Below are positions 15,942 to 57,012 of a stretch of 64,000 nucleotides of DNA, in pieces. The stretch spans positions 124,001 through 188,000 of the forward strand of contig NZ_CP136761.1 of NCBI RefSeq assembly GCF_032931615.1, given 5' to 3'. Numbering within the stretch: the first letter of the stretch is position 1; each line of letters opens with the position of its first letter. The translations under genes and the position numbers were made by a program. The notes beneath the pieces were generated by a model, which was given only the letters and a program-made list of their open reading frames with translations, was not told the DNA's origin and ran no database searches. This DNA is from Palleronia sp. LCG004. Lineage in GTDB: Bacteria > Pseudomonadota > Alphaproteobacteria > Rhodobacterales > Rhodobacteraceae.

Positions 15942-15948
15942 GGGGTCC

Positions 15949-16696: not shown

Positions 16697-16699
16697 TTC

Positions 16700-18154: not shown

Positions 18155-18171
18155 CCCCGCAACCGAGATGG

Positions 18172-35649: not shown

Positions 35650-36867
35650 TCAGGACGCGGATCTGAGGCTCTTGCCCTCCGGGTCGCGGTCGACCTTTGC
35701 GCCCAGTTCGCGCGTCCAGCCCGAGACGGCCGGTACGCGGGTGCGGTCGATGCGATGGGCGAACTTGCGCGCGACATCGACGACCTCGGACATGAGGCCC
35801 TCGGCCAGCGTCGTCGGCTCGAGCCCGAGGGCAAGGAATTGGTCGTTCCTGACGATGAGGTCGTTCTCGGCGGCTTCCTTGCGCGGATTGGGCAGGTAGG
35901 CCACGCGCGCGCCGGTCTGACCCGCGATCATCTCGGCCAGGTCGCGGACGCGGTGCGTCTCGGTCATCTGGTTGAAGATCTTGACGCGGTCGCCAGATTT
36001 CGGCGCGTCGCCGAGCGCAAGCTCGATGCAGCGGACACTGTCGCGGATATGGATGAAGGCGCGGGTCTGGCCGCCCGATCCGTGGACCGTCAACGGATAG
36101 CCGATCGCGGCCTGGATGAGGAAACGGTTGAGGACGGTCCCGTAATCGCCGTCGTAGTCGAAGCGATTGACGAGCTGCGGGTCGCGCAGCGTCTGGTCGG
36201 TATTGGTCCCCCAGACGATCCCCTGATGCAGGTCGGTGATCCGAAGGCCGTCATTCTGGGCGTAGAACTGAAACAGGATCTGATCGAGCGACTTGGTCAT
36301 GTGATAGACCGAGCCGGGCCGCGTGGGATAGAGGATCTCCTGCGCCTTCTTGCCCGAAGGGGTATCGATCTCGACGTCGAGATACCCTTCGGGGATGGGC
36401 GCGCCGACGGAGGAATAACCGTAGACGCCCATCGTGCCGAGATGGACGAGATGCGCGTCGATCCCGGTCTCGACCATCGCGGCGAGCAGGTTGTGCGTCG
36501 CGTTCGTGTTGTTGCGGACAGTGTAGACCTTGTGACGGTCGGTCTTCATCGAATAGGGCGCGGCACGCTGTTCGGCTAGGTGCACGATCGCGTCGGGGCG
36601 ATGTTCAGAGAGCCAAGATTTCAGCCGCTCGTATTCGTCTGCGAGGTCGAGCAGGTGGAAATGGATCGTCCGGCCCGTCGTCTCGCGCCAGATGCGGCAG
36701 CGCTCCTGAATGGAATCCATCGGCGTGAGGGATTGCACGCCGAGCTCGGTGTCGATCCAGCGTCGCGAGAGGTTGTCGAGGATGTGGACCTCGTGTCCCG
36801 CATCGCTCAGATGGAGGGTCGTCGGCCATCCGCAGAAGCCGTCGCCGCCGAGTATCGCCACCTTCAT
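35650..36867 (-). CDS. sqdB: UDP-sulfoquinovose synthase
   Basis: The 405-residue SDR enzyme converts UDP-glucose and sulfite to UDP-sulfoquinovose. SqdB/SQD1 motifs are clear: the glycine motif VAILGGDGFCGWPTTLHLSD, HILDNLSRRWIDTELG, HLAEQRAAPYSMK, a YHMTKSLDQILFQFY segment with the catalytic Tyr/Lys, and GIVWGTNTDQT. The ATG at 36867 has AGAAAGGA upstream; the longer frame adds an unrelated N-terminus. It is first in the operon and commits carbon to sulfolipid, which can replace phospholipid under phosphate limitation. No Pho box was identified upstream. Confidence 0.93.
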   Translation of the reverse strand: MKVAILGGDGFCGWPTTLHLSDAGHEVHILDNLSRRWIDTELGVQSLTPMDSIQERCRIWRETTGRTIHFHLLDLADEYERLKSWLSEHRPDAIVHLAEQRAAPYSMKTDRHKVYTVRNNTNATHNLLAAMVETGIDAHLVHLGTMGVYGYSSVGAPIPEGYLDVEIDTPSGKKAQEILYPTRPGSVYHMTKSLDQILFQFYAQNDGLRITDLHQGIVWGTNTDQTLRDPQLVNRFDYDGDYGTVLNRFLIQAAIGYPLTVHGSGGQTRAFIHIRDSVRCIELALGDAPKSGDRVKIFNQMTETHRVRDLAEMIAGQTGARVAYLPNPRKEAAENDLIVRNDQFLALGLEPTTLAEGLMSEVVDVARKFAHRIDRTRVPAVSGWTRELGAKVDRDPEGKSLRSAS

Positions 36868-36967
36868 GGACCAATCCTTTCTGGCATCGTCCGTTGCCCG
36901 ATTGGTAAGCATGGCGAGGCCGCGATGGCAAGTCCGGGCGGGACGCGTCCCGCCCGAGGTCCTTTCG

Positions 36968-37729
36968 TCAGAGCTGGACGCCCCTGGTCAGCGCCCCGTC
37001 CACGACGAGGTTCGTCCCCGTCGTGAAGCTCGAGGCGGGGCTCGCGAGGAAGACGATGGCGCGGGCGACCTCCTCGGGGCGGGCCATGCGGCCCGTGGGG
37101 TTGAGCGACAGCGCCTCGGCGAAGAGGTCGGGATTGCCGGTCTCGATCCCCTCCCAGATGCCGCCGGGGAAGTAGGTATTGCCCGGAGAGACGGTGTTTG
37201 CGCGAATGCCCTGCGCGGCGAGACGGTAGGCCAATCCTTGCGCGTAATGGACCAGCGCGGCCTTGAAGGCACCGTAGGCGGGGCCGGTGAAGTCGATCTC
37301 GCGTCCCGACACGGAGGAGACGAAGGTGATCGAGGCCGCGTCGCTCTTTTCCAGCCAGGGCATCGCGGCATTTACCAGCCGGACCGAATGCATCATGTCG
37401 GTATCGAAGCCTGCCTGCCAGGCCTCCTCGTCATCCGAGACGGCGAGGGCGGAGACATTGCCGACCACGATGTCGATGCCGCCGAGTTCCTCGGCCGAGG
37501 AGGTCACCCAGCCGTCGAGCGCGTCGCGCTGAGAGACGTCGACGGCCGAACCGGTGATCGTCGCGCCCTGGTCCGAGAGGCGCGAGACAACCGCCTCGAC
37601 GCCCTCGGCATTGCGCGCGCAGATAGAGACGGCCGCCCCTTCGGCCGCGAAGATCTCGGCGCAGGCGAGGCCGATCCCCTTGCTGCCGCCGGTGACGAGA
37701 ACGCGCTTGCCCTTCAATCCCAGATCCAT
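36968..37729 (-). CDS. Short-chain dehydrogenase/reductase, last gene of the amide operon
   Basis: The 253-residue classical SDR has the cofactor motif VTGGSKGIGLACAEIFAAEG near the N-terminus, NVSALA (variant of NNAG), a Ser in FVSSVSG, and catalytic Tyr/Lys in AYGAFKAALVHYA. It ends with GTNLVVDGALTRGVQL. The usual YxxSK has Phe in place of Ser next to Lys, which is tolerated in some members. The start is 23 bases after the formamidase stop on the same strand, so it is likely co-transcribed. Its substrate and its link to amide metabolism are unknown. Confidence 0.83.
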   Translation of the reverse strand: MDLGLKGKRVLVTGGSKGIGLACAEIFAAEGAAVSICARNAEGVEAVVSRLSDQGATITGSAVDVSQRDALDGWVTSSAEELGGIDIVVGNVSALAVSDDEEAWQAGFDTDMMHSVRLVNAAMPWLEKSDAASITFVSSVSGREIDFTGPAYGAFKAALVHYAQGLAYRLAAQGIRANTVSPGNTYFPGGIWEGIETGNPDLFAEALSLNPTGRMARPEEVARAIVFLASPASSFTTGTNLVVDGALTRGVQL

Positions 37730-37752
37730 GTCTTGATCCTCCTATGCGCCGA

Positions 37753-38739
37753 TCAGGTCAGGTACTTCTTCTCGATGGCCGCGCCGATCGAGTATTTCGG
37801 ATCGACCATGTTGCCGAGGCGGACCTTGCCGCACATCGTGAGCAGCATGTAGGCGTCGGCCTCGCTCTGGCCCGTCTCGGCCGCGACCCAGCGGACGAGC
37901 TCGCGATAGGCGATGCGGGCGGCGTCCTCCATCGGGCGGGCGGAGCCGATGAACATCATCCGGTCCTCGGTCTCGAGCTGCGGCCAGGAATTGCCGTGTC
38001 CCTTGATGAGATCGACCTGGAGCTCGACGGTCGCGGGCATCTCGAGCGCCACGCCGCAGAGCTCTCCGTCGCCCTGGATCGCATGACAATCGCCGAGATA
38101 GAGAAAGCCGCCCTCGGTCTGCACGGGGAGGTAGATGATCGAGCCGGGGGCCACGTCGGGCAGGTCCATGTTGCCGCCGTAGTAATCGGGCTGCAGAGAG
38201 GAGATCGCCTCGATCTGGGGCGCGGTGCCGATCGTGCCGATGAAGGGCTCGTAGGGAAGCGTCACCGTGTCGGACCAGTAGACGCCGTTCTCGTCCACGC
38301 GGATCTTCTTGACCTTCTCGGGCAAGGGAGGGTTCAGGAGCGCGGTGTCACCGGTCGCCACGAGGCCGCCGAATTCGGTCAGCAGGCAGGTCGTGCCGAC
38401 GGGCTGAGGGCCGCGCGGCTTGATCGAGATGATCCGCACGGCGAGCGCGTCGCCCTTTTCGGCACCCTTGACGTAGATCGGGCCGGTCTGGGGGTTGAGG
38501 AAGGGGAAGTTCAGATGCTCGGACGGGTTCGAAACCTCTTCCTTGATCTTGCCCTCGAAGGCGTCGTGGGTCTCGACGGTGACGACGGCACCGGGCTCGA
38601 CCTCGAGCACGGGATCGACATAGGGGCCGTAGACGTAGTGGAACGTGCCCTGATCCTCGATCGTGATCTTGTGGCGCGCGCCTTCGACCCCTTTCGCGAC
38701 GCCCTTGCGATTCATGATGGATGTTTCAAACCAGCTCAT
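37753..38739 (-). CDS. fmdA: Formamidase/acetamidase (FmdA type), cytoplasmic
   Basis: The 328-residue enzyme hydrolyses formamide or other short amides to ammonia and the acid. Family blocks include EVEPGAVVTVETHDAFEGK, NPQTGPIYVKGAEKGDALAV, PDYYGGNMDLPDVAPGSI, GDCHAIQGDGELCGVALE and a C-terminal DAYMLLTMCGKVRLGNMVDP. There is no signal peptide, unlike the paralogue at 1408-2661. It directly follows the importer genes, giving uptake then hydrolysis in one transcript, as with fmd genes of methylotrophs. The gap to the ATPase gene is 53 bases. Confidence 0.9.
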   Translation of the reverse strand: MSWFETSIMNRKGVAKGVEGARHKITIEDQGTFHYVYGPYVDPVLEVEPGAVVTVETHDAFEGKIKEEVSNPSEHLNFPFLNPQTGPIYVKGAEKGDALAVRIISIKPRGPQPVGTTCLLTEFGGLVATGDTALLNPPLPEKVKKIRVDENGVYWSDTVTLPYEPFIGTIGTAPQIEAISSLQPDYYGGNMDLPDVAPGSIIYLPVQTEGGFLYLGDCHAIQGDGELCGVALEMPATVELQVDLIKGHGNSWPQLETEDRMMFIGSARPMEDAARIAYRELVRWVAAETGQSEADAYMLLTMCGKVRLGNMVDPKYSIGAAIEKKYLT

Positions 38740-38792
38740 TTTCGGTCTTCCTCCGTTCAGGTCTGTCGTCGGTTCGGCTCTGGCCCAAAGGG

Positions 38793-39506
38793 TCAGATCG
38801 TCAGGTGCTTGCGGACGCTCGCGCGGTCGCGGATCGCCTCGCCGTCGAGTTCAGCGACGACGCGGCCCTTTTCCATCACGTATCCACGGTCGGCCAACGT
38901 CACGATGAGGTCGAGGTTCTGCTCGACCAGAAGCACGGCCACGCCGGTCTCGGCATTGAGCGCACGCATGTTGCGGGCGATGTCCTTGATGATCGAGGGC
39001 TGGATGCCCTCCGAGGGCTCGTCGAGCAGCATGAGCTTCGGATCGCCCATCATCGCGCGAGCGATGGCGAGCTGCTGCTGCTGGCCGCCCGACAGCGTAC
39101 CCGCGCGCTGCCGCGCGCGTTCCTTCAGGATCGGGAAGGATTTGTAGACGCGATCGTAATCGGGCCTGGCGCGGCCGCGACCCGCCGTCTCGCCCACGAC
39201 GAGGTTCTCGCGGATCGTGAGCTCGGGAAACACCTCGCGTCCCTGGGGAATGTACCCGATCCCGGCCCGCGCGCGGCTATCGGCCCCGTCGCCGCTCACG
39301 TCACGCCCGTCGAGCTGGATCGTGCCCGATCGCACCTTGAGAAGGCCCGTCAGGGTCTTCATCAGCGTGCTCTTGCCGACGCCGTTGCGGCCGATCACGG
39401 CGACCAGTTCGCCCGGCCCGATCTCGAGATCGACGCCCTGCAGCACCGTCTCGCTGCCATAACCCGAAGTGAGGCCGCCGACCTTCAGAAGCGGTGTGTC
39501 AGACAT
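38793..39506 (-). CDS. ABC transporter ATPase (UrtE/FmdF/LivF type)
   Basis: The 237-residue ATPase has Walker A GRNGVGKSTLMKTLTGLL, Q-loop IPQGREVFPELT, signature LSGGQQQQLAIARAMM, Walker B KLMLLDEPSEGIQPS and the switch His region VLLVEQNLD. It is the LivF/UrtE partner of the upstream LivG/UrtD-type ATPase; the start overlaps that gene by 8 bases. The short YIPQGREVF stretch is typical of the branched-chain amino acid/urea importer group. I leave the symbol open because urea and short amide importers of this group cannot be separated by eye. Confidence 0.9.
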   Translation of the reverse strand: MSDTPLLKVGGLTSGYGSETVLQGVDLEIGPGELVAVIGRNGVGKSTLMKTLTGLLKVRSGTIQLDGRDVSGDGADSRARAGIGYIPQGREVFPELTIRENLVVGETAGRGRARPDYDRVYKSFPILKERARQRAGTLSGGQQQQLAIARAMMGDPKLMLLDEPSEGIQPSIIKDIARNMRALNAETGVAVLLVEQNLDLIVTLADRGYVMEKGRVVAELDGEAIRDRASVRKHLTI

Positions 39507-40218
39507 CGGCGGTCCCCAGATAGATTTCCTGCACGCCCGGATGGGCGACGATCTCGGCGATGGTCCCTTCGGCGAAGATCGACCCGAAATGCAGAACCGT
39601 CACCCGCCGCGAGATCTGCTCGACGAAGGCCATGTCATGCTCGACCGCGAGGATGGTGATGCCGCGTTCGTTGAGATCGTGAAGCATCTCCCCGGTCTTG
39701 CGGGTCTCGTCCGGCGACATGCCGGCGGTCGGCTCGTCAAGGAGGAGGAGCTGAGGCTCGACCCCCACCGCCATCGCGATCTCCAGCCATTGCTGCTGCC
39801 CGTGCGAAAGGACGCCAGCCGGCAGGTCGGCCTCGCGTTCCAGCCCGGCGAAGTCGAGCATCGCGCGCACGGTCGCCGCAAGGCTTTGTCCGTGGAGGTG
39901 ATGCTGGAACGCAACCTCGAGGTTCTGGCGCACGGAAAGCGCCTTGAAGATGCCCGGCACCTGGAACTTGACCGAGATGCCCCGTCGGATGCGCTGGAAC
40001 GGGCGGAGCGCGGTGATGTCGTCCCCCGCGAAGACGATCCGTCCCGCATCGGGGGCGTGCTCGCCCAGGATCAGGCGGAAGAAGCTCGACTTCCCGGCAC
40101 CGTTCGGGCCGATCAGGCAATGCATGGCGCCCCGTTCGAGCGCGAAGTCGATCCCGTCGGCGACGGTGACGCCGCCGAAGGACTTCCTGAGACCAGCGAC
40201 TTCGAGAATGGCGGTCAT
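39499..40218 (-). CDS. ABC transporter ATPase (UrtD/FmdE/LivG type)
   Basis: The 239-residue ATPase has Walker A GPNGAGKSSFFRLILGE, the UrtD-like FQRIRRGISVKFQVPGIFKA, signature LSHGQQQWLEIAMAVG (LSHGQ instead of LSGGQ, characteristic of UrtD) and Walker B LLLLDEPTAGMSPDET. VEHDMAFV is the switch region. The LSHGQQQWLEI form strongly favours the urea/short-chain amide importer subgroup over general amino acid importers. The start overlaps the permease stop (ATGA). Confidence 0.9.
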   Translation of the reverse strand: MTAILEVAGLRKSFGGVTVADGIDFALERGAMHCLIGPNGAGKSSFFRLILGEHAPDAGRIVFAGDDITALRPFQRIRRGISVKFQVPGIFKALSVRQNLEVAFQHHLHGQSLAATVRAMLDFAGLEREADLPAGVLSHGQQQWLEIAMAVGVEPQLLLLDEPTAGMSPDETRKTGEMLHDLNERGITILAVEHDMAFVEQISRRVTVLHFGSIFAEGTIAEIVAHPGVQEIYLGTADV

Positions 40219-41306
40219 CGGCGCGCCCTCCGCCACAAGGATCGGGCACCGGTCATCGCCGCGACGATCAGGCCCTCGGGCGCGGCCAGCACGGTCAGAA
40301 GGAGCAGGGACCCCATGACGACGAGGGCGTACTGGCTTCCGTAGATCGTGAGCGACTGGAACCCCGCGAGGACGAGGATCGTCCCCAGAAGCGTTGCCGT
40401 GATGTCGCGACGTCCGCCGACGGCGACCCAGACGATAGGAAGCGCGGCCGCGGTGAGCCCCATGCTCGACGGCGTGATGTACTGACCCCAGGCCGTGTAG
40501 AGCGCGCCCGAAAGACCCGCGAGCGCCCCCCCGAGCCCGAACGCGAGGGTCTGGTAGAGACGGATGTCGTAGCCCAGCATCTCCGCGCGGTGGGGATTCT
40601 CGCGGATCGCGACGAGCACGTTGCCGAACCGTGCGTTGAGAAGCATCCTGAGGCCAAGATAGCAGGCGACGACGAGGGCCAGCAGCACGTAGTAGAACCC
40701 GCGCCCGGGAAAGAGGACGAGATCGCCGCCCGGCCATGGGATCGTCAGCGGCGGCATCCCCGACATGCCGTTGAAGCCGTTGAGCCGTGCCTCGCCGATG
40801 CGCCATTGCGGACCGGCGGTCTGCGCCATGAACGTCTCGAGCACGAGCGTCACCGACAGGGTGACGATGCCCACGAACACACCGCGAATGCGACCGTAGA
40901 ACATGAAGTAACCGATCAGCAGCGCGAAGAGCCCCGCGAGCGCGATCGACAGGATCACGGCGAGGATCGTGAAGCCGTAGGCCGTTCCGATGTTGATGGT
41001 GAGGACGCCGTAGGCATAGCCCGCCAGCCCGAAGAACGCGGTCTGCCCGAAGCTGAGCGCGCCGGCATAGCCCCAGACGACCCCGAGCCCCATCGCCATG
41101 AAGGTCCAGACCATAAAGTAGGCGGCATTGCCGACGGTCCAGGCATCCGCAAAGAGCGGATAGATCGCGGCGGCCACGATCGCCAGTGCCACGAGACCCC
41201 AGAAGACCGGACCGCGGCCCATCGTCTGCGGCCCCTCGAGATGGGCGATGGCCCTTCGGAGCCCGCTTTCCCCGCGAAGGGGCACGTCGTTGGATTGCAC
41301 GCTCAT
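40215..41306 (-). CDS. ABC transporter permease (UrtC/LivM type)
   Basis: The 363-residue protein has about ten TM segments. The LivM-family signature GYAGALSFGQTAFFGLAGY lies at about residue 80 and VAIRENPHRAEMLGYD (cytoplasmic coupling helix) near 240, then FGLGGALAGLSGALYT. The hydrophilic N-terminus (residues 1-35) is as in UrtC. The start overlaps the previous permease stop by 4 bases (ATGA). It forms the heterodimeric channel with the UrtB-type subunit. Confidence 0.9.
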   Translation of the reverse strand: MSVQSNDVPLRGESGLRRAIAHLEGPQTMGRGPVFWGLVALAIVAAAIYPLFADAWTVGNAAYFMVWTFMAMGLGVVWGYAGALSFGQTAFFGLAGYAYGVLTINIGTAYGFTILAVILSIALAGLFALLIGYFMFYGRIRGVFVGIVTLSVTLVLETFMAQTAGPQWRIGEARLNGFNGMSGMPPLTIPWPGGDLVLFPGRGFYYVLLALVVACYLGLRMLLNARFGNVLVAIRENPHRAEMLGYDIRLYQTLAFGLGGALAGLSGALYTAWGQYITPSSMGLTAAALPIVWVAVGGRRDITATLLGTILVLAGFQSLTIYGSQYALVVMGSLLLLTVLAAPEGLIVAAMTGARSLWRRARR

Positions 41307-42175
41307 CGGGACCCTCCCTTGAGCCAGCCGGAGAGCCCTCCGGGTAGGATGCGGATGACGACGATCACCGCGACGAGCAGGCCGATCTGGCCGAAGAGCT
41401 GCCCGTACCAGGCGGTGAGCGTCGCGCGGATGAGGGCAAGGATCGCGGCGGCAGGAGCCGCGCCCACGAAGATGTCGGCCCCGCCGACCACCACGGTCAC
41501 GAAGCTTTCGACGATGAAGGTTGCGCCCATCGTCGGCACCATCGTCATGGTCGGCGCGTAGAGCCCGCCCGCGAGGCCCGCGAGCGCGGCCCCGAGGCCG
41601 AAGGTCAGGCCGTACATCCGGCCCGTATCGACGCCGAGGGCGCGGGCCATGTCGGGTTTCTGGATCGTCGCGCGGGCGACGACGCCGAACCGCGTGCGGT
41701 AGAACAGGACGTAGAGCGCCGCGAGGAGTGCGATCGCGGCGGCCATCAGCACCAGCCGGTAGGCCGAATAGCTGTCGCCGCCGATCGTGACCGCGCCGAG
41801 TGGCGTGCCGATCCCGGCCATGGTGGAACCCAGCACGATGAGCACGCCCTGCGTGGCGATCAGGCTGATCCCCCATGTGGCGATGATGGAATCGAGCGGC
41901 CGGTGATAGAGGTGCCGGATGACGAGGCGTTCGATCACCATCCCGACCAGCCCCGCGACCAGCGCCCCCGCGAGGATCGCCGCCACCAGCGGCAGGCCCG
42001 CGCGGGCCGTCGCGGCGGTCACGTAGGCCCCGCACATGATGAATTCGCCATGAGCGAGATTGATCACGCCCATCATCCCGAAGATGACGGCGAGCCCCGC
42101 GCAGGAGATGACCAGAAAGGCGAATGCGTCGCCGAACTGGTAGAGCATCGCGAAGGCTGTCTGGAACAGCGCCAT
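41303..42175 (-). CDS. ABC transporter permease (UrtB/LivH type)
   Basis: The 290-residue permease has eight or so TM segments. VIFGMMGVINLAHGEFIMCG at about residue 30 is the UrtB/LivH hallmark. TRFGVVARATIQKPDMARALG is the coupling loop, and LAGLAGGLYAPTMTMVPTMG follows. The start at 42175 was chosen over an upstream frame that would run into a hairpin. The 82-base gap to the binding-protein gene is the only sizeable gap among the importer genes and contains a perfect hairpin. Confidence 0.9.
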   Translation of the reverse strand: MALFQTAFAMLYQFGDAFAFLVISCAGLAVIFGMMGVINLAHGEFIMCGAYVTAATARAGLPLVAAILAGALVAGLVGMVIERLVIRHLYHRPLDSIIATWGISLIATQGVLIVLGSTMAGIGTPLGAVTIGGDSYSAYRLVLMAAAIALLAALYVLFYRTRFGVVARATIQKPDMARALGVDTGRMYGLTFGLGAALAGLAGGLYAPTMTMVPTMGATFIVESFVTVVVGGADIFVGAAPAAAILALIRATLTAWYGQLFGQIGLLVAVIVVIRILPGGLSGWLKGGSR

Positions 42176-42210
42176 CTCGGTCTCCTCTTTCGTGTCTGAT
42201 CCGGTTGAGC

Positions 42211-42242
42211 GACCCCGCCGGCCCGGTCTCGCCGGCGGGGTC
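42211..42242 (-). terminator. Intercistronic hairpin between the amide-binding protein and permease genes
   Basis: GACCCCGCCGGC (42211-42222) and GCCGGCGGGGTC (42231-42242) form a perfect 12-bp stem with an 8-nt loop, starting 16 bases after the binding-protein stop. It mirrors the hairpin after dctP. It probably stabilises an upstream mRNA end or attenuates read-through so that the receptor exceeds the membrane subunits. Confidence 0.7.
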
Positions 42243-42257
42243 ATGGGCGATCGGCGC

Positions 42258-43502
42258 TTACTGGCCCGGCGGGTTCGAAGGCGTGTATTGGGCGCTCGGG
42301 TCGTTCTGCGTCAGGTCGCAGCCCTCGTCGCCCAGCCAGTAGGGTGCGATGTTCTCCCAGGTCTGGGGGAAGTCGATCGAATGATCCTCGTTCACGTGGG
42401 CGAGGTAGATCGTGTGCGACATGTGCTGGCTCTGCGGGTCGAGGCAGACATTGCCAGACGGTCCGTCGAAGCAGACGTCGCCCTCGGCGATGACCTCTCG
42501 AACGGCGTCGTGATCGGTCGTGCCCGCGCGTTCGACCAGCTGCTTGTAGAGGTTCATCGCGATGTAGGAATTCGCGGCCTCCTGATTGATGTAGGGCTCG
42601 TCGGGGAACATCGTGCGGAAGCGGTCGACGAAGTCGTTCGAGGCGGGGGTGTCGATCTCCTCGATGTAGTTCGTGGTCACGTACATGTCGGCGAGGCTCG
42701 GGGGCGTGAAGCGCTTGTGCTCGTAGCCCTGTCCCACGTTCACCGAGGAGGCCATCGGCAGGTTCACGTCGCTCGCATTGGCCTGTTCGTAGTAGGAGGC
42801 CTGTGCCGCCCCCACGAGGAGGGTCACGACGAAGTCGGCCTCCGAGGCCTGGATGTTCTGGATCGTCTGGGAGAATTGCGAGACGCCCAGCGGGATGAAC
42901 TCCTCGCCGACCATGGTGCCGCCCTGCTCCTCGACGATCTGGCGGACCCATTCGGCGGAGATCTGTCCGAAATTGTAGTCGGCGGCGATCGTGTAGACGT
43001 TGGGGCCGTATTGCTCCATCATCCACGGGATGAGCGTCGAGAACTGCTGCTCGGGCACGGCCCCGGTGACGATCATGTTCGCATCGCAGACGCCGCCCTC
43101 GTACTGGTTGTTGTAGAAGGCGAGCCCGTCGAACTGGTTGACGATCGGCCGGTATGCCTCGCGCGAGGCGGATGAGAACCCGGCAAAGACCACGTCGACC
43201 TGATCGGATTGCAGAACCCGGCGCATGAATTCCTGATAACGGCGATTGTCGGACTGGGTGTCGTAGATGACGAGCTCGACCGGGCGTCCGTCGATGCCGC
43301 CGGCCTCGTTGATCTCGCTTGCGGCGAGCTCGATCGCATGGACCTTGACGTTGGTCGCGGCGGCGAAGTCGCCTGACTGGTCCTCGAGGACGCCGATCTT
43401 GATCGGTTCGCCCTCCTGCGCGAGCGACGGGGCGGCCGTGACGGCCAGGCACAGGCCGGCAAGCGTGCCCGCACGGCGCAGAATTCTCGTGGTCGGGGTC
43501 AT
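42258..43502 (-). CDS. Periplasmic urea/short-chain amide-binding protein (UrtA/FmdD type)
   Basis: The 414-residue receptor has a signal peptide (LAGLCLAVTAAPSLAQ, residues about 13-28). The type I periplasmic-binding fold begins IKIGVLEDQSGDFA, then AIELAASEINEAGGIDGRPV, FAGFSSASREAYRPI and TIAADYNFGQISAEWVRQIV. C-terminal Cys pairs (DVCFDGPSGNVCLD) are usual in UrtA relatives. Its ATG overlaps the stop of the ANTAR gene (ATGA). It is a paralogue of the signal-less sensor two genes upstream: one binds substrate for import, the other for regulation. Confidence 0.9.
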   Translation of the reverse strand: MTPTTRILRRAGTLAGLCLAVTAAPSLAQEGEPIKIGVLEDQSGDFAAATNVKVHAIELAASEINEAGGIDGRPVELVIYDTQSDNRRYQEFMRRVLQSDQVDVVFAGFSSASREAYRPIVNQFDGLAFYNNQYEGGVCDANMIVTGAVPEQQFSTLIPWMMEQYGPNVYTIAADYNFGQISAEWVRQIVEEQGGTMVGEEFIPLGVSQFSQTIQNIQASEADFVVTLLVGAAQASYYEQANASDVNLPMASSVNVGQGYEHKRFTPPSLADMYVTTNYIEEIDTPASNDFVDRFRTMFPDEPYINQEAANSYIAMNLYKQLVERAGTTDHDAVREVIAEGDVCFDGPSGNVCLDPQSQHMSHTIYLAHVNEDHSIDFPQTWENIAPYWLGDEGCDLTQNDPSAQYTPSNPPGQ

Positions 43503-44167
43503 TCCTGGTCTCCTCTGATGGACAGCCCCATGACGGGGCCCTTCGTGATGCCGCCGGTTGCGTCCGGCAGTCGGTCTATCGGGTCGGCGTCGCCCTCGGC
43601 CGGGTCGAGCACGGCGCGAGCGACCTCCTCGATGGTGAGGCGCTTCTCCATGGCTTCGCGGCGAAGGCGGCCATAGGCTTCCTGATCGTCGATGCCCCAG
43701 CGGGTCATCATCGTGAGGATCGCGCGGACGAGCGTTCTGCGCCCGGCGAGGCGACGTCGCAGCGTGGCCTCCTCCTTCGCGATCTCGGTACGTCGCACGC
43801 TCTCGTTCGCGGCGAGGAACAGGGCGGTGAACACACCCGAGCTGCGGACAGGTTTCTGGATATGGCTGGTGATCCGCGCCTTGACCGCCTTGCCGAGCCT
43901 GGAGGGCGTCTCGCTCCCCACGAGAGCGATCACGGGAGTGCCGCCAGCGGCGGCGGCATCGAACGCGCCGGCCTCTGCATCGTCGAGATCGATGAAGGCG
44001 ATGTCTGCCCCGGTGAAATCCGCGGCCCCCGCCATTCTTGGCGGGGCAAGACGGACCTCGAGCCCCAGATTGGCGAGCGTTCGCGCGAGACCGGTGCGTC
44101 CGGGCGTGTCGTCCTGCAAGATCAGGGCCGTCCAGCCGCGGAAGTTCTTGAGGACCGCGCCGCTCAT
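43499..44167 (-). CDS. amiR: AmiR-like ANTAR-domain RNA-binding antiterminator
   Basis: The 222-residue protein has an N-terminal pseudo-receiver (TALILQDDTPGRTGLARTLA, then IAFIDLDDAEAG), a coiled-coil linker (SVRRTEIAKEEATLRRRLAG) and a C-terminal ANTAR domain: RTLVRAILTMMTRWGIDDQE and AYGRLRREAMEKRLTIEEVA. In Pseudomonas, AmiR binds the amidase leader RNA and prevents termination unless held by AmiC. The receiver-like domain lacks a complete phosphorylation pocket, as in AmiR. It overlaps the AmiC-like gene and the binding-protein gene by 4 bases each, so the switch is co-translated with its target operon. Confidence 0.88.
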   Translation of the reverse strand: MSGAVLKNFRGWTALILQDDTPGRTGLARTLANLGLEVRLAPPRMAGAADFTGADIAFIDLDDAEAGAFDAAAAGGTPVIALVGSETPSRLGKAVKARITSHIQKPVRSSGVFTALFLAANESVRRTEIAKEEATLRRRLAGRRTLVRAILTMMTRWGIDDQEAYGRLRREAMEKRLTIEEVARAVLDPAEGDADPIDRLPDATGGITKGPVMGLSIRGDQE

Positions 44168-45318
44168 GGCACCACCTTCAGATGCGTCGCGGCGGCAATG
44201 CGGAACTCGCTGTCCTGCGTCCAGGTAAGATATGGGTCCGGCGCGACGGGCTGTTTGCTTTCCCAGGCGATGTCGAAGGTCCCGTCGTCGCGCGAGATCC
44301 CGATCCGGGGGCGCAGGCTGCAATGCAGGTTCATCGGGTCAACCTCGATCTCGCCCTGAGGGGCGGCGAAGCGGATGCCACGCGCGGCCTCCCGCACCGC
44401 CTCGAACCCGTCGCTGCCCGCCCGTTCGATCGCGCGGGCGAGGAGATGCACGGCAACATAGGTGGCTTCGGCATCGGCCGATGCGTGGCCGAGGTCCGAA
44501 AAGCGGGCGTTCCACGCCTCGGTGAAGCGCTGATTCTCGGGCGTGTCGACGGTCGAGAAGTAGACGGAGGAGGAGAGATGGCCCGCGGCTGCGCGACCGA
44601 TCAGCGGCAGTTCCGCCTCGGACAGGCTGCAGCTCGCAACCGGGATGTCGGCCGACTGGTCGAGCCCCGCCGCACCGGCCAGATCGCGCAGGTCGTCGAG
44701 AAACGCGAACAGCGACGAACCGATCAGCGTGGTGAAGACGAAATCGGGCCGGTCGCAGACGATCTGGCGTGCGATGTCGCGCAGATCGGTCTCGCCCACG
44801 GGGACGTAACGCTCGCCCATGACGGTTCCGCCGGCGATCCCCAGCGCCTCGCGCAGGATGCGGTTGTTCTCCCATGCCCAGACGTAGTTGGAGCCGACGA
44901 GCCAGCCGCGATGGCGCGACTGGCCGAGAAGGTACTTCGCGAGCGGGATGACGTGCTGGTTCGGGGCGGCCCCTGAATAGACGACGTTCTCGGAGGTCTC
45001 GAACCCCTCGTAATGCGACGGATACCAGAGAAGGGCGTCGCGTTTCTCGAGGACCGGCAGGATCTCCTTTCGGCTCGATGAGGTATAGCACCCGACGAGA
45101 TGCGTGATCGCGGGATCTGCGAGGAGGTCGGTCGTCGCGGTCACGTAGGCACCGAGACATCCGCCGGGATCGACGGTAACGGAATCGAGCACGAGTCGTC
45201 CGGAGGCATTGATCTCGTCGATGGCAAGATCCGCGGCTGCGCGCATCGACCGGCAGACCCCGGCATAGGAGCCGGTTTCCGAAAAGATGAGCCCGATCCT
45301 GGTCCCGCTTCCGCTCAC
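44164..45318 (-). CDS. amiC: AmiC-like cytoplasmic amide sensor
   Basis: The 384-residue type I binding-protein-fold protein has no signal peptide: it starts VSGSGTRIGLIFSETGSYAG. AmiC/UrtA-like blocks follow: AADLAIDEINASGRLVLDSV, LVGCYTSSSRKEILPVLEKR, DALLWYPSHYEGFETSENVV and LVGSNYVWAWENNRILREAL. In Pseudomonas, AmiC sequesters AmiR and releases it when amides bind. The start is GTG at 45318. The frame is open to 45456, but that would place coding sequence across a terminator hairpin. It is first in the operon, directly behind the leader. Confidence 0.87.
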   Translation of the reverse strand: MSGSGTRIGLIFSETGSYAGVCRSMRAAADLAIDEINASGRLVLDSVTVDPGGCLGAYVTATTDLLADPAITHLVGCYTSSSRKEILPVLEKRDALLWYPSHYEGFETSENVVYSGAAPNQHVIPLAKYLLGQSRHRGWLVGSNYVWAWENNRILREALGIAGGTVMGERYVPVGETDLRDIARQIVCDRPDFVFTTLIGSSLFAFLDDLRDLAGAAGLDQSADIPVASCSLSEAELPLIGRAAAGHLSSSVYFSTVDTPENQRFTEAWNARFSDLGHASADAEATYVAVHLLARAIERAGSDGFEAVREAARGIRFAAPQGEIEVDPMNLHCSLRPRIGISRDDGTFDIAWESKQPVAPDPYLTWTQDSEFRIAAATHLKVVP

Positions 45319-45333
45319 GCGCGCCCCCAAACG

Positions 45334-45375
45334 AAAAAAGCCCCTGCAGATCCTGCCGGATCGTCGCAGAGGCTT
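45334..45375 (-). terminator. Leader terminator immediately before the AmiC-like start codon
   Basis: On the minus strand AAGCCTCTGC (45375-45366) pairs with GCAGGGGCTT (45347-45338). An inner GATCC/GGATC stem sits between them, and a run of U reaches 45334. The tract ends only 15 bases before the GTG at 45318, so this terminator lies inside the operon leader, not behind another gene. That is where an AmiR-type antiterminator would act. Confidence 0.85.
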
Positions 45376-45383
45376 CGTTGCCC

Positions 45384-45447
45384 GGCCAATCATGTGGCCA
45401 ATCTGTAGATCGTCGGCGGTGGTCTCGACCCTGAGCCCATGACCGCC
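45384..45447 (-). promoter_or_regulatory. Structured leader RNA upstream of the terminator, candidate ANTAR target
   Basis: Reading the minus strand, GGCGGT (45447-45442) can pair with ACCGCC (45420-45415), enclosing a GGTC/GACC pair. Next comes a small hairpin with stem GGCCA/TGGCC (45399-45384) and a six-base loop CATGAT. The terminator follows 8 bases later. ANTAR proteins bind tandem hairpins with hexanucleotide loops. The size fits, but the loop lacks A at position 1, so this is a candidate only. The promoter should lie between here and 45702. Confidence 0.45.
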
Positions 45448-45701
45448 TTTGCTCACTGGAGCTTCTTCACGCTGGCGCGATCAAGGCTCGTTGGCAACAA
45501 AAATCGTGCGCTACCGGGAACGACCGCTTTTTGTGCAGCCTACGGCGCAAATGATCGTTTCGAGCGTCATGGCGGGATCCCGGCACTCGGTCTGGCAAGA
45601 CCGCTGCCGGCGTCGTGCACTCCGTCGATGACCGGGCATACCGGTCCCCGGCTGGGGTCGAAGCCTGAGCCCTGCTGTGTCTGCTTCCCTTGCGATATTG
45701 G

Positions 45702-46352
45702 TCAGACGGCGACCGCGCGGAGGAACAGGTCGAGCCCCGTTTCGAATCGCCGCAGCGGGTCGCGGACGTCATGCGTTCGATGGGGATCGAAAAGCGCATC
45801 CGCGATCGACGGTCGCACCATCGCCGACAGGATCGCCGCCGCCTGATCGGTATCGTCGAGTTGCGCCTCGCCCCGCGCCACGGCGCGGTCGAGCTCGGCG
45901 CGGATGAGTGCGCGGTCGCGCGAGATGAACCCGGCGAGACAGGTCCGAGTGGATTCGGAGAGGCCTTCGCATCCAGATGCCGTCATCCGCAGGATTGCGA
46001 TCGGCAGGCCATTATGGCGCGAGCAGGGTGCCGGCATCAGCAGGCGTCGAAGACGTTCGGCCAACGGCAATTCGTGTTCCTCGGGCGTCAGTTCGCGAAT
46101 GAACTCGCTTCGGAGGCGTTCCATGTAGGCCACGAAGAGCGCGTCGCGATCCGGCACCGCAGCATAGAGCGTGCGCTTGGACATTCCGGCCTCGGAGGCG
46201 ATCGCGGACATCGTCGTCCCGGCAAGGCCCTGCCGCTCGAATACGGTGCCGAGCGCGTGCAATATCTGATCCATCCGGTCGTCGGCGGACATCACCGGCG
46301 GGCGCCCCCGCGCGCGTTCGCCCTCGGCAATCGTTCGTGCGTCGCCGCACAT
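45702..46352 (-). CDS. TetR family repressor of the adjacent RND efflux genes
   Basis: The 216-residue regulator has HTH helices MDQILHALGTVFERQGLAGT, TMSAIASEAGMSKRTLYAAV and PDRDALFVAYMERL. The C-terminal domain resembles TetR_C (AefR/AcrR-like). ATG 46352 has GGAGGGGAA upstream; a TTG nine codons earlier is the only longer choice. It is divergent from the RND adaptor, with a perfect palindrome between the two starts, so it is very likely the local repressor of the pump. Confidence 0.88.
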   Translation of the reverse strand: MCGDARTIAEGERARGRPPVMSADDRMDQILHALGTVFERQGLAGTTMSAIASEAGMSKRTLYAAVPDRDALFVAYMERLRSEFIRELTPEEHELPLAERLRRLLMPAPCSRHNGLPIAILRMTASGCEGLSESTRTCLAGFISRDRALIRAELDRAVARGEAQLDDTDQAAAILSAMVRPSIADALFDPHRTHDVRDPLRRFETGLDLFLRAVAV

Positions 46353-46396
46353 TTCCCCTCCGTCATGCCGCACTTGCAAGATCCTCCGCCCCGGAT

Positions 46397-46418
46397 TAGG
46401 AAACCTGCACGTTTCCTA
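46397..46418. promoter_or_regulatory. Palindromic operator between the TetR and RND genes
   Basis: TAGGAAAC (46397-46404) and GTTTCCTA (46411-46418) form a perfect 8-bp inverted repeat with spacer CTGCAC, 22 bp in total. It lies 45 bases from the TetR start and 56 from the adaptor start, the typical size and place for a TetR-family operator controlling both genes. Confidence 0.85.
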
Positions 46419-46473
46419 TTTCCGGGCGCGCCGGACATCAAGTCCGCCCGCGCTGCGTCACAGAAAGCTCGCC

Positions 46474-47679
46474 ATGACCAGGTTTCACGCGATCGCGGTC
46501 TTCGCCGCTCTCTCGGGGTTCGTTCTCATCAGTGCCGCAAGCGCGCAGGAGCCGCCTCCGCCCGCCGTCACCGTGGTGACGCTCGAACCGGAATCCGTGA
46601 CGCTGAGCTCGACCCTGCCGGGCCGGGTTCGTGCCTCGTCCGAGGCGGAGGTCCGCCCGCAGGTCAGCGGCATCGTCACCGAGCGGCTCTTCGAGGAGGG
46701 CGGCGACGTCGAGGCGGGGGAGGTGCTCTACCGGATCGAACCCAGCAGCTACGAGGCAGCCGTGGCGCAGGCGCGGGCCGCCGTGGCACAGGCAGAGGCG
46801 CAGCTTCGGGCCGCGACCAGCGATGCGGACCGGGTCCAGAGCCTCAGCGACCGGGGCATTTCCGCGGCCGCGACCGAGGATAACGCCATCTCGACGCGCG
46901 ACGCCGCGTCCGCAGCCCTCGACGCGGCTCGGGCGCAACTGCAAGCCTCCGAGATCGAGCTCGACCATACCGCCATCCGGGCCCGGCTGTCCGGCCGGAT
47001 CGGTTTTTCGGAGGCGAGCGCCGGTGCCCTCGTCACGGCGAGCCAGGCGACACCGCTCGCCGTGATCCGGACGCTCGATCCCGTCTACGTGGATGTGACG
47101 CAATCGGCGGCCGACCTGCTCAGCTGGCGGCGCGGAGGCGGCGCGCCGAGCGACGAGGACATGCCCACCGAGGTGAGCCTGCAACTCGCCGATGGCACGA
47201 CCTACGACCAGACCGGTCGGCTGAGCGCCGCCGAGCCGCATGTGGACGAACAGACGGGCGTGGTCCTCCTCAGGATGGCGTTCGACAATCCCGACGGGCT
47301 TCTCCTGCCGGGCATGTATGTCCAGGTCGAGATGCCGACGCGCACGGCGGAAAACGTGTTCCTCGTACCGCAGGAGGGGGTCTCGCGCGATCGGCGCGGG
47401 AATCCGACGGCCCTTGTCGTCAACGCCGACAACGTGGTCGAGAGCCGCGAGTTGACGATCCTGCAGGATCGCGGGGCGGACTGGATCGTGGAAGCGGGGC
47501 TCGAGGCCGGCGACCGCGTGATTGTCGCGGGATTGCAGAAGGCCGCGCCCGGCGCGACCGTCACCCCCGAAGAGAGATCGGAGGCCCCGGCCGACGATCA
47601 GGCCAACGCCGCAGGCCCGGCTTCATCCGACGAGGCGCGCCGGCTGGCAGAGGCCGAGCCCGAGCCCGAGGACAACTGA
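46474..47679 (+). CDS. RND efflux periplasmic adaptor (AcrA/MexA type)
   Basis: The 401-residue membrane fusion protein has signal segment FVLISAASAQ (residues about 14-23). The lipoyl half-motifs VRASSEAEVRPQVSGIVTER and DVEAGEVLYRIEPSSYEAAV come next, then an alpha-hairpin (AVAQAEAQLRAATSDADRVQ), the second lipoyl half (IRARLSGRIGFSEASAGALV) and beta-barrel strands. No lipobox Cys is seen, so it is probably soluble or held by the pump. An acidic C-terminal tail (EAEPEPEDN) ends it. The permease start is 3 bases after its stop. Confidence 0.92.
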   Translation: MTRFHAIAVFAALSGFVLISAASAQEPPPPAVTVVTLEPESVTLSSTLPGRVRASSEAEVRPQVSGIVTERLFEEGGDVEAGEVLYRIEPSSYEAAVAQARAAVAQAEAQLRAATSDADRVQSLSDRGISAAATEDNAISTRDAASAALDAARAQLQASEIELDHTAIRARLSGRIGFSEASAGALVTASQATPLAVIRTLDPVYVDVTQSAADLLSWRRGGGAPSDEDMPTEVSLQLADGTTYDQTGRLSAAEPHVDEQTGVVLLRMAFDNPDGLLLPGMYVQVEMPTRTAENVFLVPQEGVSRDRRGNPTALVVNADNVVESRELTILQDRGADWIVEAGLEAGDRVIVAGLQKAAPGATVTPEERSEAPADDQANAAGPASSDEARRLAEAEPEPEDN

Positions 47680-47682
47680 TCC

Positions 47683-50600
47683 ATGGCCCGCTTCTTCATC
47701 GACAGACCGGTTTTCGCCTGGGTGATCTCGATCCTCATCATGGGGATCGGGATCCTCGCCATCCGGACCCTGCCCATCGCGCAGTATCCGCAGATCGCGC
47801 CGCCCACAGTCTCGGTCAGTGCGTCGTATCCGGGCGCGTCGGCGCAGACGGTCGCCAACACCGTAACGCAGGTCCTCGAAGAACAGATGACCGGTCTCGA
47901 CGGGCTGCGCTATTTCTCTTCCACCTCGTCCTCGGCCGGGACGACCTCGATCACGCTGACCTTCGAAACCGGCACCGATCCCGACATCGCGCAGGTGCAG
48001 GTGCAGAACCGCGTGAGCCAGGCGAGCGCGCTTCTGCCCGAACCCGTCCAGCGACAGGGCGTGACAGTGCAGAAATCCGCGTCCGGGTTCCTGCAGGTGA
48101 TCTCGCTCATTTCGACCGACGGCAGCTACGATCAGTCGGACCTCGCCGATTACCTCGCGACCAACCTGCGTGACGAGATCAGCCGCATCGACGGGGTGGG
48201 CAGTTTGCAGGTCTTCGGCGCGCCCTATGCGATGCGGATCTGGCTCGACCCCTCGAAGCTCTCGGCCTACGGCCTGTCGACTTCCGACGTCGTCGCCGCC
48301 GTCTCCGAGGAGAACGCCCAGATTTCGGCGGGGGCCTTCGGGACCCGGCCAGTGGCGGGCGAGCAGCAGCTCAACGCGACCATCACAGCGCAATCGCTTC
48401 TTCAGACGCCCGAGGATTTCCGCCAGATCGTGCTCAGGGCCGAAACGGGCGGCGGGCTCGTCCTTCTCGACGATGTAGCGCGGGTCGAGATCGGTGCCGA
48501 GAATTACGGCTTCGAATCCCGCTATAACGGGGCACCGTCGGCCGGTATGGCGATCTCCCTCGCGCCGGGTGCGAACGCGCTCGACACCGCCGTGGCGGTC
48601 GAGGAACGCATGGAGGAATTCGCAAACAACTTCCCCGAGGGGATCGACTACGTCATTCCCTACGACACGACGCCCTTCGTCGAGATCTCGATCGAGGAGG
48701 TCATCAAGACCCTGATCGAGGCGATCGTGCTGGTCTTCCTCGTGATGCTCCTGTTCCTGCAGAACCTGCGCGCTACGCTGATCCCAACACTCGCGGTGCC
48801 GGTCGTAATTCTCGGGACCTTCGCGGTGCTCGCCGTGGCGGGCTTCACGATCAACACGCTGACCATGCTCGCCATGGTGCTGGCCATCGGCCTCCTCGTC
48901 GACGACGCGATCGTCGTGGTCGAGAACGTCGAGCGCGTGATGGAGGAGGACGGCCTTTCCCCGCGCGAGGCGACGCGCAAGTCGATGGGTCAGATCACCG
49001 GCGCGCTCATCGGCATCGCCATGGTCCTGTCGGCCGTCTTCGTGCCGATGGCCTTCTTCGGCGGCTCGACGGGCGTGATCTATCAGCAATTCGCGATCAC
49101 CATCGTATCGGCCATGGCGCTGTCGGTGGTCGTGGCGCTGACCTTGACGCCCGCGCTTTGCGCGACGCTGCTCAAGCCCAAATCCCACGCCGCGCGACGC
49201 GGGCCCTTCGCGTGGTTCAACTGGGGGTTCGCGCGCGTGCTCGGCGGCTATGCGGGGACCGTGGGCTGGATCGTCCGGCGTCCGTTCCGCACGGGGCTCA
49301 TCTATGTGGGGCTCGCCGTGGTCATGGCGCTGCTGTTCGTGCGCACGCCGACGGGCTTCCTGCCCGAGGAGGATCAGGGCATTCTCTTTACCATCGTGCA
49401 GGGGCCGACGGGTGCCACGCTCGACCGGACCGTCGACGTGATCGAACAGATCGAGGATTATTATTTCACCGCCGAGAGCGAGGCGGTGGAATCGGTCTTC
49501 GGCGTGGGCGGTTTCGGCTTCGGCGGCGCGGGCCAGAACATGGGCCTCGCATTCGTTCGGTTGAAGGATTGGGAGGAGCGCAAGGACCCGTCGCTGAGCG
49601 CGCAGGCGGTGGCGGGCAGGGCCTTCGGGGCATTCTCGCAGATCCGCGACGCCATGGTCTTTCCGGTCGTACCGCCATCGGTCATCGAACTCGGCAACGT
49701 GTCGGGCTTCGACGTCTACCTGCAGGCCCGCCAGGGCCAGAGCCATGACGAGCTTCTGGACGCCCGCAACCAACTCCTGGGCATGGCCGCGCAGAGCGAT
49801 CTCATCGCGTCCGCCCGGCCCAACGGGCTCGAGGATGCAGCGCAGTTCAACATCGACATCGATTGGCGAAAGGCTGGCGCGATGGGGGTTTCGGCGTCGA
49901 ACGTCAGCAACCTCCTGTCGACCGCCTGGGCCGGTACCTACGTGAACGACTTCATCGATCGCGGCCAGATCAAGCGCGTCTACGTTCAGGGCGAAGCCGA
50001 TGCCCGCAGCACCCCTACGGATCTCGAGAAATGGAGGGTGCGAAACGCTTCCGGCGGTCTGGTGCCGTTCTCGAACTTCGCCGACGGCAACTGGACCAGC
50101 GGACCTCAGGGGGTCTACCGCTATAACGGCATTCCGTCGATGCAGCTGCAGGGCTCTCCCGCGCCGGGCGTTTCCACCGGCGAGGCCATGGCCGAAATGG
50201 AACGGCTCGCCGGTCAGCTTCCGGCAGGCTATTCCCTCGCCTGGACCGGCCTGTCGCTCGAGGAACGGCAATCGGGAAATCAGGCACCGCTGCTTTATGC
50301 CCTGTCGCTCGCGGCGGTATTCCTGTCCCTTGCCGCGCTTTACGAAAGCTGGTCGATCCCGTTCGCGGTCATGCTCGCCATGCCGATCGGGGTTCTGGGG
50401 GCCCTCGTCGGGGCGTGGCTCGGCGGGTTCGAGAATGGCGTTTTCTTCCAGGTGGGACTCCTGACGGTGATCGGCCTGACGGGCAAGAACGCGATCCTGA
50501 TCGTCGAATTCGCCCGCGACCGCGTCGCGGACGGGGAGGCGCTGATCCCTGCGACGATCGACGCGGCGCGCCAGAGGTTCCGCCCGATCGTGATGACCTC

Positions 50601-55644: not shown

Positions 55645-56162
55645 GGCCTCTTGGCAGAAGCTGATTCAAATAACGGCGCTGACATCAATGGGTATGGTCC
55701 TAGCGCGCAATATTGCCCCAAGTAGAACCAGCCTTGAACAGGCAAACTTCCAATGAGTTGAATTGCCAATGGAAGGCGAGTCTGCTCACTTCATTTTCAC
55801 CGTCCGAAAGCGCTGCGTGATGCGCCAATGTTCGGTCCGGTCAAGTCGGGCCACAGCGATGATCTTGCCAGTGAACGGTAGCTTTGGGCCGGCGAGCGAT
55901 GCCAGGTTGATGCGGACCCGGCATGCGCCCCGCAGCCCTGCCGCATGTCCGCATCGAGCCCAAAGCGACTGCCTCCACCGTTTCTTCAGTGAACGAGAGT
56001 AAGAATTAGCATCTCGTTCAGTTTATCGAGATGATTGCGTAATAAGCAGGAGGTAGGCTCACCTCGTTTGTGACGGCGTCTCAGTGGGAAAAACTGTTTT
56101 GGCCATTGATGTAGACAAAGGGACTCAGGGAGTCGCAGGTTGATTGACCATGACGAATACGA
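55645..56162. other. Region without supported genes
   Basis: About 500 bases between the IS5 remnant and the next gene. Frames on both strands are short and lack family features. No repeat or RNA gene was recognised. Confidence 0.45.
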
Positions 56163-56760: not shown

Positions 56761-57012
56761 AAAGGCGGCACTATTCTACGGTTCCTTGCTGTTCACGTCG
56801 CGGCGTCAGACGGCAGCTTCGTCACGTATAGTGTGAGTTCGACCCGGAATCGGTCTCACGGTCACGGCGATCGACTGGTCTGGTGAAGCCGCATTGCAGC
56901 CAACGGCCTTGTCGGAAGGGCCCACGAAGGGCCGGGAATTAATATTATGATATATGTATTTATCATCAAGCCCAAAGGCTGCGAAGCCGTTTCAGAATTA
57001 TTCCAATGAATT

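Follow-up and report, generated by a model that had tools for sequence, protein, structure and literature searches.

We describe an operon of nine open genes on the minus strand (36968-45318, with refined starts) of a 64,000-nucleotide stretch of Palleronia sp. LCG004, hereafter the window. The operon encodes an AmiC-like sensor, an AmiR-like antiterminator, a Urt-like ATP-binding cassette (ABC) importer with its periplasmic binding protein (SBP), a hydrolase of the acetamidase/formamidase family and a short-chain dehydrogenase/reductase (SDR), and it is preceded by a leader that carries two hexaloop hairpins and an intrinsic terminator. Judged from the sequence, we consider it likely that the operon is autoregulated, in that a small aliphatic amide would be sensed, the terminator would be read through, and the amide would be imported and hydrolysed.

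Genes and layout of the operon

The original prediction, which was made from the sequence alone, had listed nine open minus-strand genes in the order given below, among them an AmiC-like sensor without a signal peptide, an AmiR-like ANTAR protein, an SBP, two permeases and two ATPases, the first with the LSHGQ signature; gene calls, domain models and the motif read in the UrtD-like ATPase bore this out.

44164..45318, minus strand: amiC-like cytoplasmic sensor, 384 aa, GTG start (Pfam Peripla_BP_5; nearest structures 8tg1 and AmiC 1pea/1qnl)
43499..44167, minus strand: amiR-like antiterminator, AmiR_N pseudo-receiver plus ANTAR (PF21332, PF03861; 1qo0_D)
42258..43502, minus strand: SBP, 414 aa, TIGR03669 family (family models; signal peptide by eye)
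41303..42175, minus strand: UrtB-like permease (Pfam/NCBIfam models)
40215..41306, minus strand: UrtC-like permease (Pfam/NCBIfam models)
39499..40218, minus strand: UrtD-like ATPase, LSHGQ signature (Pfam/NCBIfam models; motif read in sequence)
38793..39506, minus strand: UrtE-like ATPase (Pfam/NCBIfam models)
37753..38739, minus strand: acetamidase/formamidase-family hydrolase (PF03069), 328 aa (Pfam; nearest solved structure 5ubu)
36968..37729, minus strand: SDR oxidoreductase (Pfam)

Mostly ATGA overlaps had been described between these genes, which is correct for four junctions (amiC-amiR, where the junction sequence places the amiR ATG at 44167, overlapping the amiC stop, and amiR-SBP, urtB-urtC and urtC-urtD), but the urtD-urtE junction is an 8-nt overlap and the remaining three are gaps of 82, 53 and 23 nt. 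When inspected by eye, the AmiC-like protein has no signal peptide and the SBP N-terminus is a typical one. The nearest solved relative of both proteins is 8tg1, followed for AmiC (E 3.4e-75 with 8tg1) by Pseudomonas aeruginosa AmiC (E about 8.8e-68) and for the SBP by urea-binding proteins; P. aeruginosa AmiR (1qo0_D, E 1.9e-11) is nearest to AmiR, and 5ubu (E 8.8e-122) to the hydrolase. Both AmiR domains, the pseudo-receiver PF21332 and ANTAR (PF03861), scored above the Pfam cut-offs. The hydrolase had been called a formamidase; with 133.5 bits against a cut-off of 27 it belongs to PF03069, but it fails the formamidase FmdA equivalog NF045496 (81.6 bits against a cut-off of 500), and the name holds at the level of the family, with formamidase activity a prediction.

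Conservation of the gene order

A profile built from 22 aligned AmiC proteins detected 216 relatives in genome contigs, and the best 80 loci were examined. The order AmiC-AmiR-SBP-UrtB-UrtC-UrtD-UrtE-FmdA was found in the same orientation in 72 of the 80, more than expected by chance; the genome search proposed in the original prediction recovered the arrangement, and the order, which was thought there to be possibly undescribed, is not unusual and is shared by loci that, by record title, are mostly from Rhodobacterales and Hyphomicrobiales. Two loci run into a contig end (L053 and L069), and in six an importer is missing from between AmiC-AmiR and FmdA (L095, L096, L102, L119, L127 and L130), of which L096 is incomplete and L119 has Urt-like genes further on.

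An SDR orthologue (at least 55% identity) lies near the operon in 51 of the 72 full loci. In 49 of these it is downstream in the same orientation, immediately after the operon in 21 and at a greater distance in 28, and in 2 it is on the opposite strand; it was not seen within the stretch examined in the other 21. Additional genes accompany some copies: a longer second PF03069 gene follows the operon in Tabrizicola (L071), and in a Bradyrhizobium locus (L083, 17237-19324) fmdA and the SDR gene are separated by a gene that matches the carbon-nitrogen hydrolase family (PF00795) twice. Among annotated plasmid copies, that of Paracoccus liaowanqingii (L149) has the SDR gene with an amidase gene after it, and that of P. 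aminophilus JCM 7686 (L150), whose P2 stem (see below) seems weak on visual inspection, has no SDR gene after the operon.

The closest named copy is that of Palleronia aestuarii DSM 22009, in which AmiC is 86%, AmiR 83% and the other seven proteins are 93-98% identical to those of the window. When 13 genus mates were searched, only one (G010, apparently this same copy) had a close AmiR (83%), and the other matches listed were at 35% or less. AmiR was also the least conserved protein when loci L053-L065 were compared with the window (42-47%, with AmiC at 62-67% and the other seven at about 70-90%).

A leader RNA upstream of amiC

The operon had been thought to extend up to about 45450. The amiC start is most likely the GTG at 45318 instead, and an ANTAR-type leader with a terminator, absent from the original prediction, lies just upstream. 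Its elements are as follows.

45479..45484, minus strand: -35-like box TTGATC (putative promoter), 52 nt upstream of the first hexaloop (TTGAC/TTGAT box in homologous leaders)
45421..45438, minus strand: HP1, promoter-proximal hexaloop hairpin GGGCUC-[AGGGUC]-GAGACC with A at loop position 1 (A1) and G at position 4 (G4), one internal mismatch (alignment, folding)
45384..45399, minus strand: HP2, spacer hairpin GGCCA-[CAUGAU]-UGGCC, loop not conserved (folding, alignment)
45370..45383, minus strand: P2, terminator-proximal hexaloop hairpin GGGC-[AACGAA]-GCCU, A1, G4 (folding, alignment)
45334..45375, minus strand: intrinsic terminator, stem AAGCCUCUGC..GCAGGGGCUU plus U tract (folding)

The terminator region (45330-45375, 46 nt) has a predicted energy of -24.5 kcal/mol (z -4.5). 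Its 5' arm starts within P2, and in the predicted folds P2 and the terminator are mutually exclusive: a transcript ending before the terminator 3' arm forms P2, and the full transcript forms the terminator. HP1 lies about 50 nt upstream of P2, with 39 nt between the stems. Two A1/G4 hexaloops, the second overlapping a terminator, are likewise described for the dual-hexaloop ANTAR RNAs of the EutV type in excerpts of PMC3369931 and PMC8934654. A Rfam scan of the window at gathering thresholds gave no match, and the leader terminator was missed by a simple terminator scan of the window, an internal bulge in the stem being the probable cause.

Conservation of the leader

The 81 leaders of the window and the 80 loci are related, so that counts among them are not independent. 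A terminator was present in 78, P2 near the terminator base in 74 and both hexaloops in 67; in 810 dinucleotide shuffles, of which a terminator was not required, the P2 pattern occurred in 195 and both hexaloops in 23.

An alignment was made of 19 leaders, those of the window and of 18 of the 80 loci, hand-picked as Rhodobacterales-like with a called P2. RNAalifold predicted only the HP1 and P2 stems. Loop base 1 is A in all 19 leaders, in HP1 and P2 alike; at base 4 of loop 1, 16 leaders have G and the other 3 have A. Changes on both sides were seen at four of the five HP1 stem pairs; the P2 stem is invariant and hence uninformative for covariation. The three-helix structure had a covariation score above all 500 shuffles, and its share of paired cells peaks in the true register, although one slid register (+2) beats the true register in covariation score (0.266 versus 0.173). 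A hairpin lies near the HP2 position in most of these leaders. We considered HP2 and P2 as the hexaloop pair and rejected this arrangement; only 3 of the 19 (the window, L062 and L069) have a best HP2 loop of six bases, and none of the three begins with A. A covariance model built from the 19 leaders matched two untrained leaders, L071 and L073, at E ~2e-8, and more weakly L068 (0.0088), L067 (0.29) and L066 (0.84); all non-leader matches were at E 0.76 or worse.

Spacing of the two hexaloops

Two sets of 56 were hand-picked from the 81 leaders (P2-called loci, with Bradyrhizobium thinned): 56 loci without the window for the counts of the TTGAC box and of loop 2, and the window with 55 loci, L066 left out, for spacing. 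The HP1 finder used for spacing demands A1 and is hence no evidence for it; in a separate search with the loop unconstrained, A1 was present in 48 of 56 leaders in the best hexaloop hairpin that is closed by C-G and lies upstream of P2, compared with 236 of 1111 hits in mononucleotide shuffles.

A TTGAC box is present upstream in 50 of the 56 loci. The distance from the box (TTGAC or TTGAT) to the HP1 loop is 47 nt in 28 of 50 placed leaders and 41-53 nt in 49 of them, and the loop-to-loop distance from HP1 to P2 ranges from 42 to 77 nt. With the one distance narrow and the other variable, the position of HP1 seems to be fixed relative to the promoter and that of P2 relative to the terminator. 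For the spacer, folding predicts a hairpin in most leaders from Rhodobacterales, a longer one in most from Bradyrhizobium, and little structure in the Methylobacterium and Mesorhizobium relatives.

EutV targets naturally have linkers of 5-12 nt, and linkers of 3 or 14 nt drastically reduce the response, as given in excerpts of PMC3369931; extending the linker of such a target by 20 nt abolished antitermination, according to the passages of PMC8934654. In contrast, the stems are 28-63 nt apart in the 56 leaders. We tentatively propose, with somewhat less than even confidence, that AmiR antitermination in alphaproteobacteria may use, in place of a compact module of two hairpins, a promoter-locked recruitment hairpin close to the transcript 5' end and a terminator-locked antitermination hairpin joined by a variable spacer of ~30-60 nt, and that the short-linker rule of EutV would then not be class-wide for ANTAR proteins.

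Pocket residues and the likely ligand

Urea contacts in UrtA include Ser122, Gln144, Tyr190 and Asn246, of which Asn246 bonds one urea nitrogen (excerpts of PMC10392092). The contacts were mapped through an SBP structure-sequence alignment, in which a single offset accounts for all nine residues. The SBP retains the Ser, Tyr, Gln, Glu, Tyr and Phe of these contacts, the equivalents of Ser122, Gln144 and Tyr190 included, but has Phe109 in place of Trp120, Val230 in place of Asn246 and Asn255 in place of Ser274 (UrtA numbering second). AmiC has Tyr at the Trp120 position and Ile199 at the Asn246 position, where P. aeruginosa AmiC has Val in the alignment. Since Asn246 bonds a urea nitrogen, its loss from both the SBP and AmiC fits an amide with a non-polar group at that place. 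The genome has its own UrtA (L133; TIGR03407, 531.3 against a cut-off of 492.75), which keeps the equivalents of Trp120 and Asn246, and its urease and UrtA genes are on another contig. Because the key Asn is missing in sensor and SBP and UrtA and urease are encoded separately, a small amide fits better than urea.

Proposed mechanism

As in known AmiC-AmiR systems, and as far as sequence elements go, there is an AmiC-related cytoplasmic type-I sensor, a protein with a pseudo-receiver and an ANTAR domain, and a target RNA that overlaps a terminator. RNA polymerase would start just upstream of HP1 and, without inducer, would stop at the leader terminator before amiC. Basal read-through would yield AmiC, which, by analogy with P. 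aeruginosa, would bind AmiR and keep it inactive until amide binding by AmiC released it. Free AmiR would bind the hexaloops, HP1 and then P2, and P2, held folded, would block the terminator; the whole operon would be transcribed, amiC and amiR included, giving positive feedback. The SBP and the UrtB-E-like importer would bring the amide in, the PF03069 enzyme is predicted to release ammonia from it, and either the substrate or the product is probably acted on by the SDR. Amide sensing and antitermination governing an importer and a hydrolase had already been suggested in the original prediction; the leader hexaloops, the terminator and the amide-like pocket residues support it.

Several observations weigh against this scheme. 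A sigma-70 scan of the window found no promoter, and no good -10 box was seen. The 19 aligned leaders are divided at base 4 of loop 2, with G in 11 of them and A in the other 8, and G4 matters for EutV; the unconstrained hexaloop upstream of P2 has G4 in just 30 of 56 leaders, and the P2 loop starts with G in 20 of 56, mostly from Bradyrhizobium. HP2 is paired in only 51% of the cells of the 19-leader alignment, and only 17 of 56 spacers fold more than one standard deviation better than their mononucleotide shuffles. The covariance model missed the Hyphomicrobiales leaders, where the hexaloops come from the pattern search. The spacing of HP1 and P2 lies beyond what EutV tolerates, the SDR has no clear place in a simple amide hydrolysis, and the SBP passes the archaeal urea-binding model TIGR03669 (596.9 against 494.8), which points to urea.

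Alternative readings

One alternative concerns HP1, which might not be an AmiR site at all but a stability element of the 5' end, with P2 alone being bound. According to excerpts of the structure paper PMC8934654, the minimal site for ANTAR consists of one hexaloop, and in sibling leaders of the Dpp type, inspected by eye, a P2-type hexaloop was seen and no second A1/G4 hexaloop was noticed; the excess of the spacing over the EutV limits also agrees with this alternative. However, the HP1 loop keeps A1 and mostly G4 in the 19 aligned leaders, its stem changes on both sides, and its distance to the TTGAC box is narrow, and we regard the alternative as unlikely.

As to the ligand, the operon could serve urea, with AmiC sensing it, the importer carrying it and the PF03069 enzyme being incidental or acting on urea-like compounds. 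The TIGR03669 score of the SBP is in accord with this, as are the permeases and ATPases, which score best against Urt models. Yet the urea equivalog cut-offs are missed by UrtB (344.3 against 374.25), UrtC (356.4 against 575.55), UrtD (239.6 against 304.1) and UrtE (284.9 against 285.8); the Asn246 and Trp120 kept by the separate UrtA are replaced in both the SBP and AmiC; the urease gene is elsewhere; and a PF03069-type gene closes the set in the 72 full loci and follows amiC-amiR directly in six more. We regard a urea system as highly improbable. The substrate might instead be a larger or functionalised amide, such as a hydroxy-amide or a nitrile-derived one, for which the hydrolase and SDR, together with the carbon-nitrogen hydrolase in Bradyrhizobium, would form a short pathway. 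The frequent SDR orthologue, the PF00795 double-match gene between fmdA and the SDR gene in L083, the amidase gene after the SDR gene in P. liaowanqingii, and an AmiC pocket that differs from that of P. aeruginosa AmiC (His102, Trp147) would all suit such a substrate, but 21 of the 72 full loci have no such SDR in the stretch examined, and we hold this sequence-based possibility to be rather doubtful, if less so than the other two. A small aliphatic amide is the ligand that we favour.

Related amiC-amiR operons

The genome has a second amiC-amiR operon (L033, C1:990000-1009900, about 8620-18308), in which amiC-amiR is followed by genes for two permeases and for a binding protein of family 5, and then by a second PF03069 gene (205 bits) and the genes of a pair of oligopeptide-type ATPases. 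At the end of its leader, too, a GGC-AAUGGG-GCC hexaloop sits on a terminator, and the Dpp-type leaders inspected by eye have a P2-type hexaloop at the terminator. Its AmiR homologue (9725-10315) matches the window AmiR at 34% (E 3.1e-19) and, despite its place in a matching operon, reached no Pfam model, ANTAR included; by sequence the ANTAR portion has diverged. That one genome holds two amiC-amiR-fmdA operons whose importers are unrelated suggests that sensor and hydrolase form an exchangeable core.

Among 20 related stretches, including the second operon, the P. aestuarii copy (L052) and L051, whose AmiR match came from a separate search, an FmdA homologue accompanies amiC-amiR in 17, the exceptions being L040, L044 and L049. 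A phylum survey found an AmiR match in 122 of 398 genomes. Of 20 places picked among these matches, 5 were Urt-type with fmdA and 10 Dpp-type with fmdA; L191 was Dpp-type with no fmdA match, and L205, L207, L208 and L209 had amiC-amiR without fmdA, with Urt-like genes some kilobases away in L208 and L209. For the classical ami operon with AmiS, AmiS/UreI was found in 7 of the 398 genomes, none adjoining AmiR among the matches listed. Annotated Dpp-type copies are present on S. meliloti pSymB (L152), whose annotation table has no AmiR gene, and, beside fec genes, on a Klebsiella michiganensis plasmid (L153, 6995-14827); of 1333 plasmid records with an AmiC match, 841 are from Klebsiella, and one of the 841 was inspected. 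On a Pantoea plasmid (L151, 5675-10739), genes for a cytosine permease, a nitrilase-related protein, AmiC and AmiR are consecutive, and a GGC-GAAGAA-GCC hexaloop and a terminator precede the permease gene.

Genomic setting

The window corresponds to positions 124001-188000 of a contig of 204,105 bases that carries a RepC gene; because of this gene the contig is probably a plasmid. Directly 3' of the operon, on the same strand, lies a gene for an NAD-dependent epimerase (35650-36912), whose best NCBIfam match is UDP-sulfoquinovose synthase at 326.1, below the cut-off of 575. The TetR and RND genes on the other side (45702-50820) were considered as operon parts and rejected, there being no TetR among the kept matches in the 80 loci. 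In P. aminophilus (L150, 6613-11741), as in the window, a TetR gene and a divergent RND efflux pair adjoin amiC; the RND proteins of the two are only 44-49% identical, and the window TetR has no match there. The G+C content drops to 0.47 at 56001-58000, whereas the adjoining 2-kb bins have 0.60-0.62 and the window has about 0.65 over most of its length.

Discussion

In the P. aeruginosa ami operon the regulators do not come first, and the enzyme is AmiE, of a family other than PF03069. The operon of the window differs in beginning with the regulators, in having a PF03069 enzyme instead of AmiE, and in including a full Urt-like ABC importer in the controlled operon. The two share a cytoplasmic binding-protein sensor and an AmiR-type ANTAR protein (1pea, 1qnl, 1qo0), and a leader with a hexaloop and a terminator (excerpts of PMC3369931, which also list urea transporters among genes behind ANTAR RNAs).

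Excerpts of a 2026 paper (PMC13209695) describe an operon of amiC, amiR, ABC importer genes and acetamidase on plasmids of Klebsiella and other enterobacteria, with acetamidase activity in lysates of the carrier strain. From gene set, size and hosts, it is apparently the operon in L153. It resembles the operon of the window in uniting amiC, amiR, importer genes and an amidase, but has a peptide-type importer (cluster 5 in that paper), another gene order and an enzyme called AmiE; the L153 operon also has no SDR gene, unlike that of the window. Urt-like importer and amidase-family genes occur together as well in Bradyrhizobium japonicum (beside PF03069 and aliphatic amidase; PMC3098086) and in Pseudomonas veronii (amiE-fmdAB-urtABCDE; PMC13209695); in both the amide substrate was inferred, and the excerpted passages mention no amiC or amiR for the former and state that the latter locus has neither. 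The fmdCABDEF genes of Methylophilus methylotrophus combine formamidase with a high-affinity amide/urea transporter and are inducible by formamide and urea, but have another regulator and a porin, and no AmiC-AmiR is named in the excerpts of the review (PMC10781810). In open-licence papers we found no description of an amiC-amiR-Urt-fmdA operon or of its leader RNA. The combination had been thought possibly undescribed: its parts are known and the sibling type, which has a peptide-type importer, has apparently been published, whereas the Urt-type arrangement and its leader are without a description found in those papers.

The sequence analysis identifies an amide-nitrogen operon that is conserved across several orders of alphaproteobacteria. 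Hexaloop spacing differs greatly among its natural leaders, so that the way in which an ANTAR dimer works with two hexaloops can be tested directly. At least some of the copies carry urea-transporter annotations, among them both Paracoccus plasmid SBPs, and one AmiC homologue is named a urea-transport protein. If the amide reading is true, such annotations would mislead models of urea and organic-nitrogen use.

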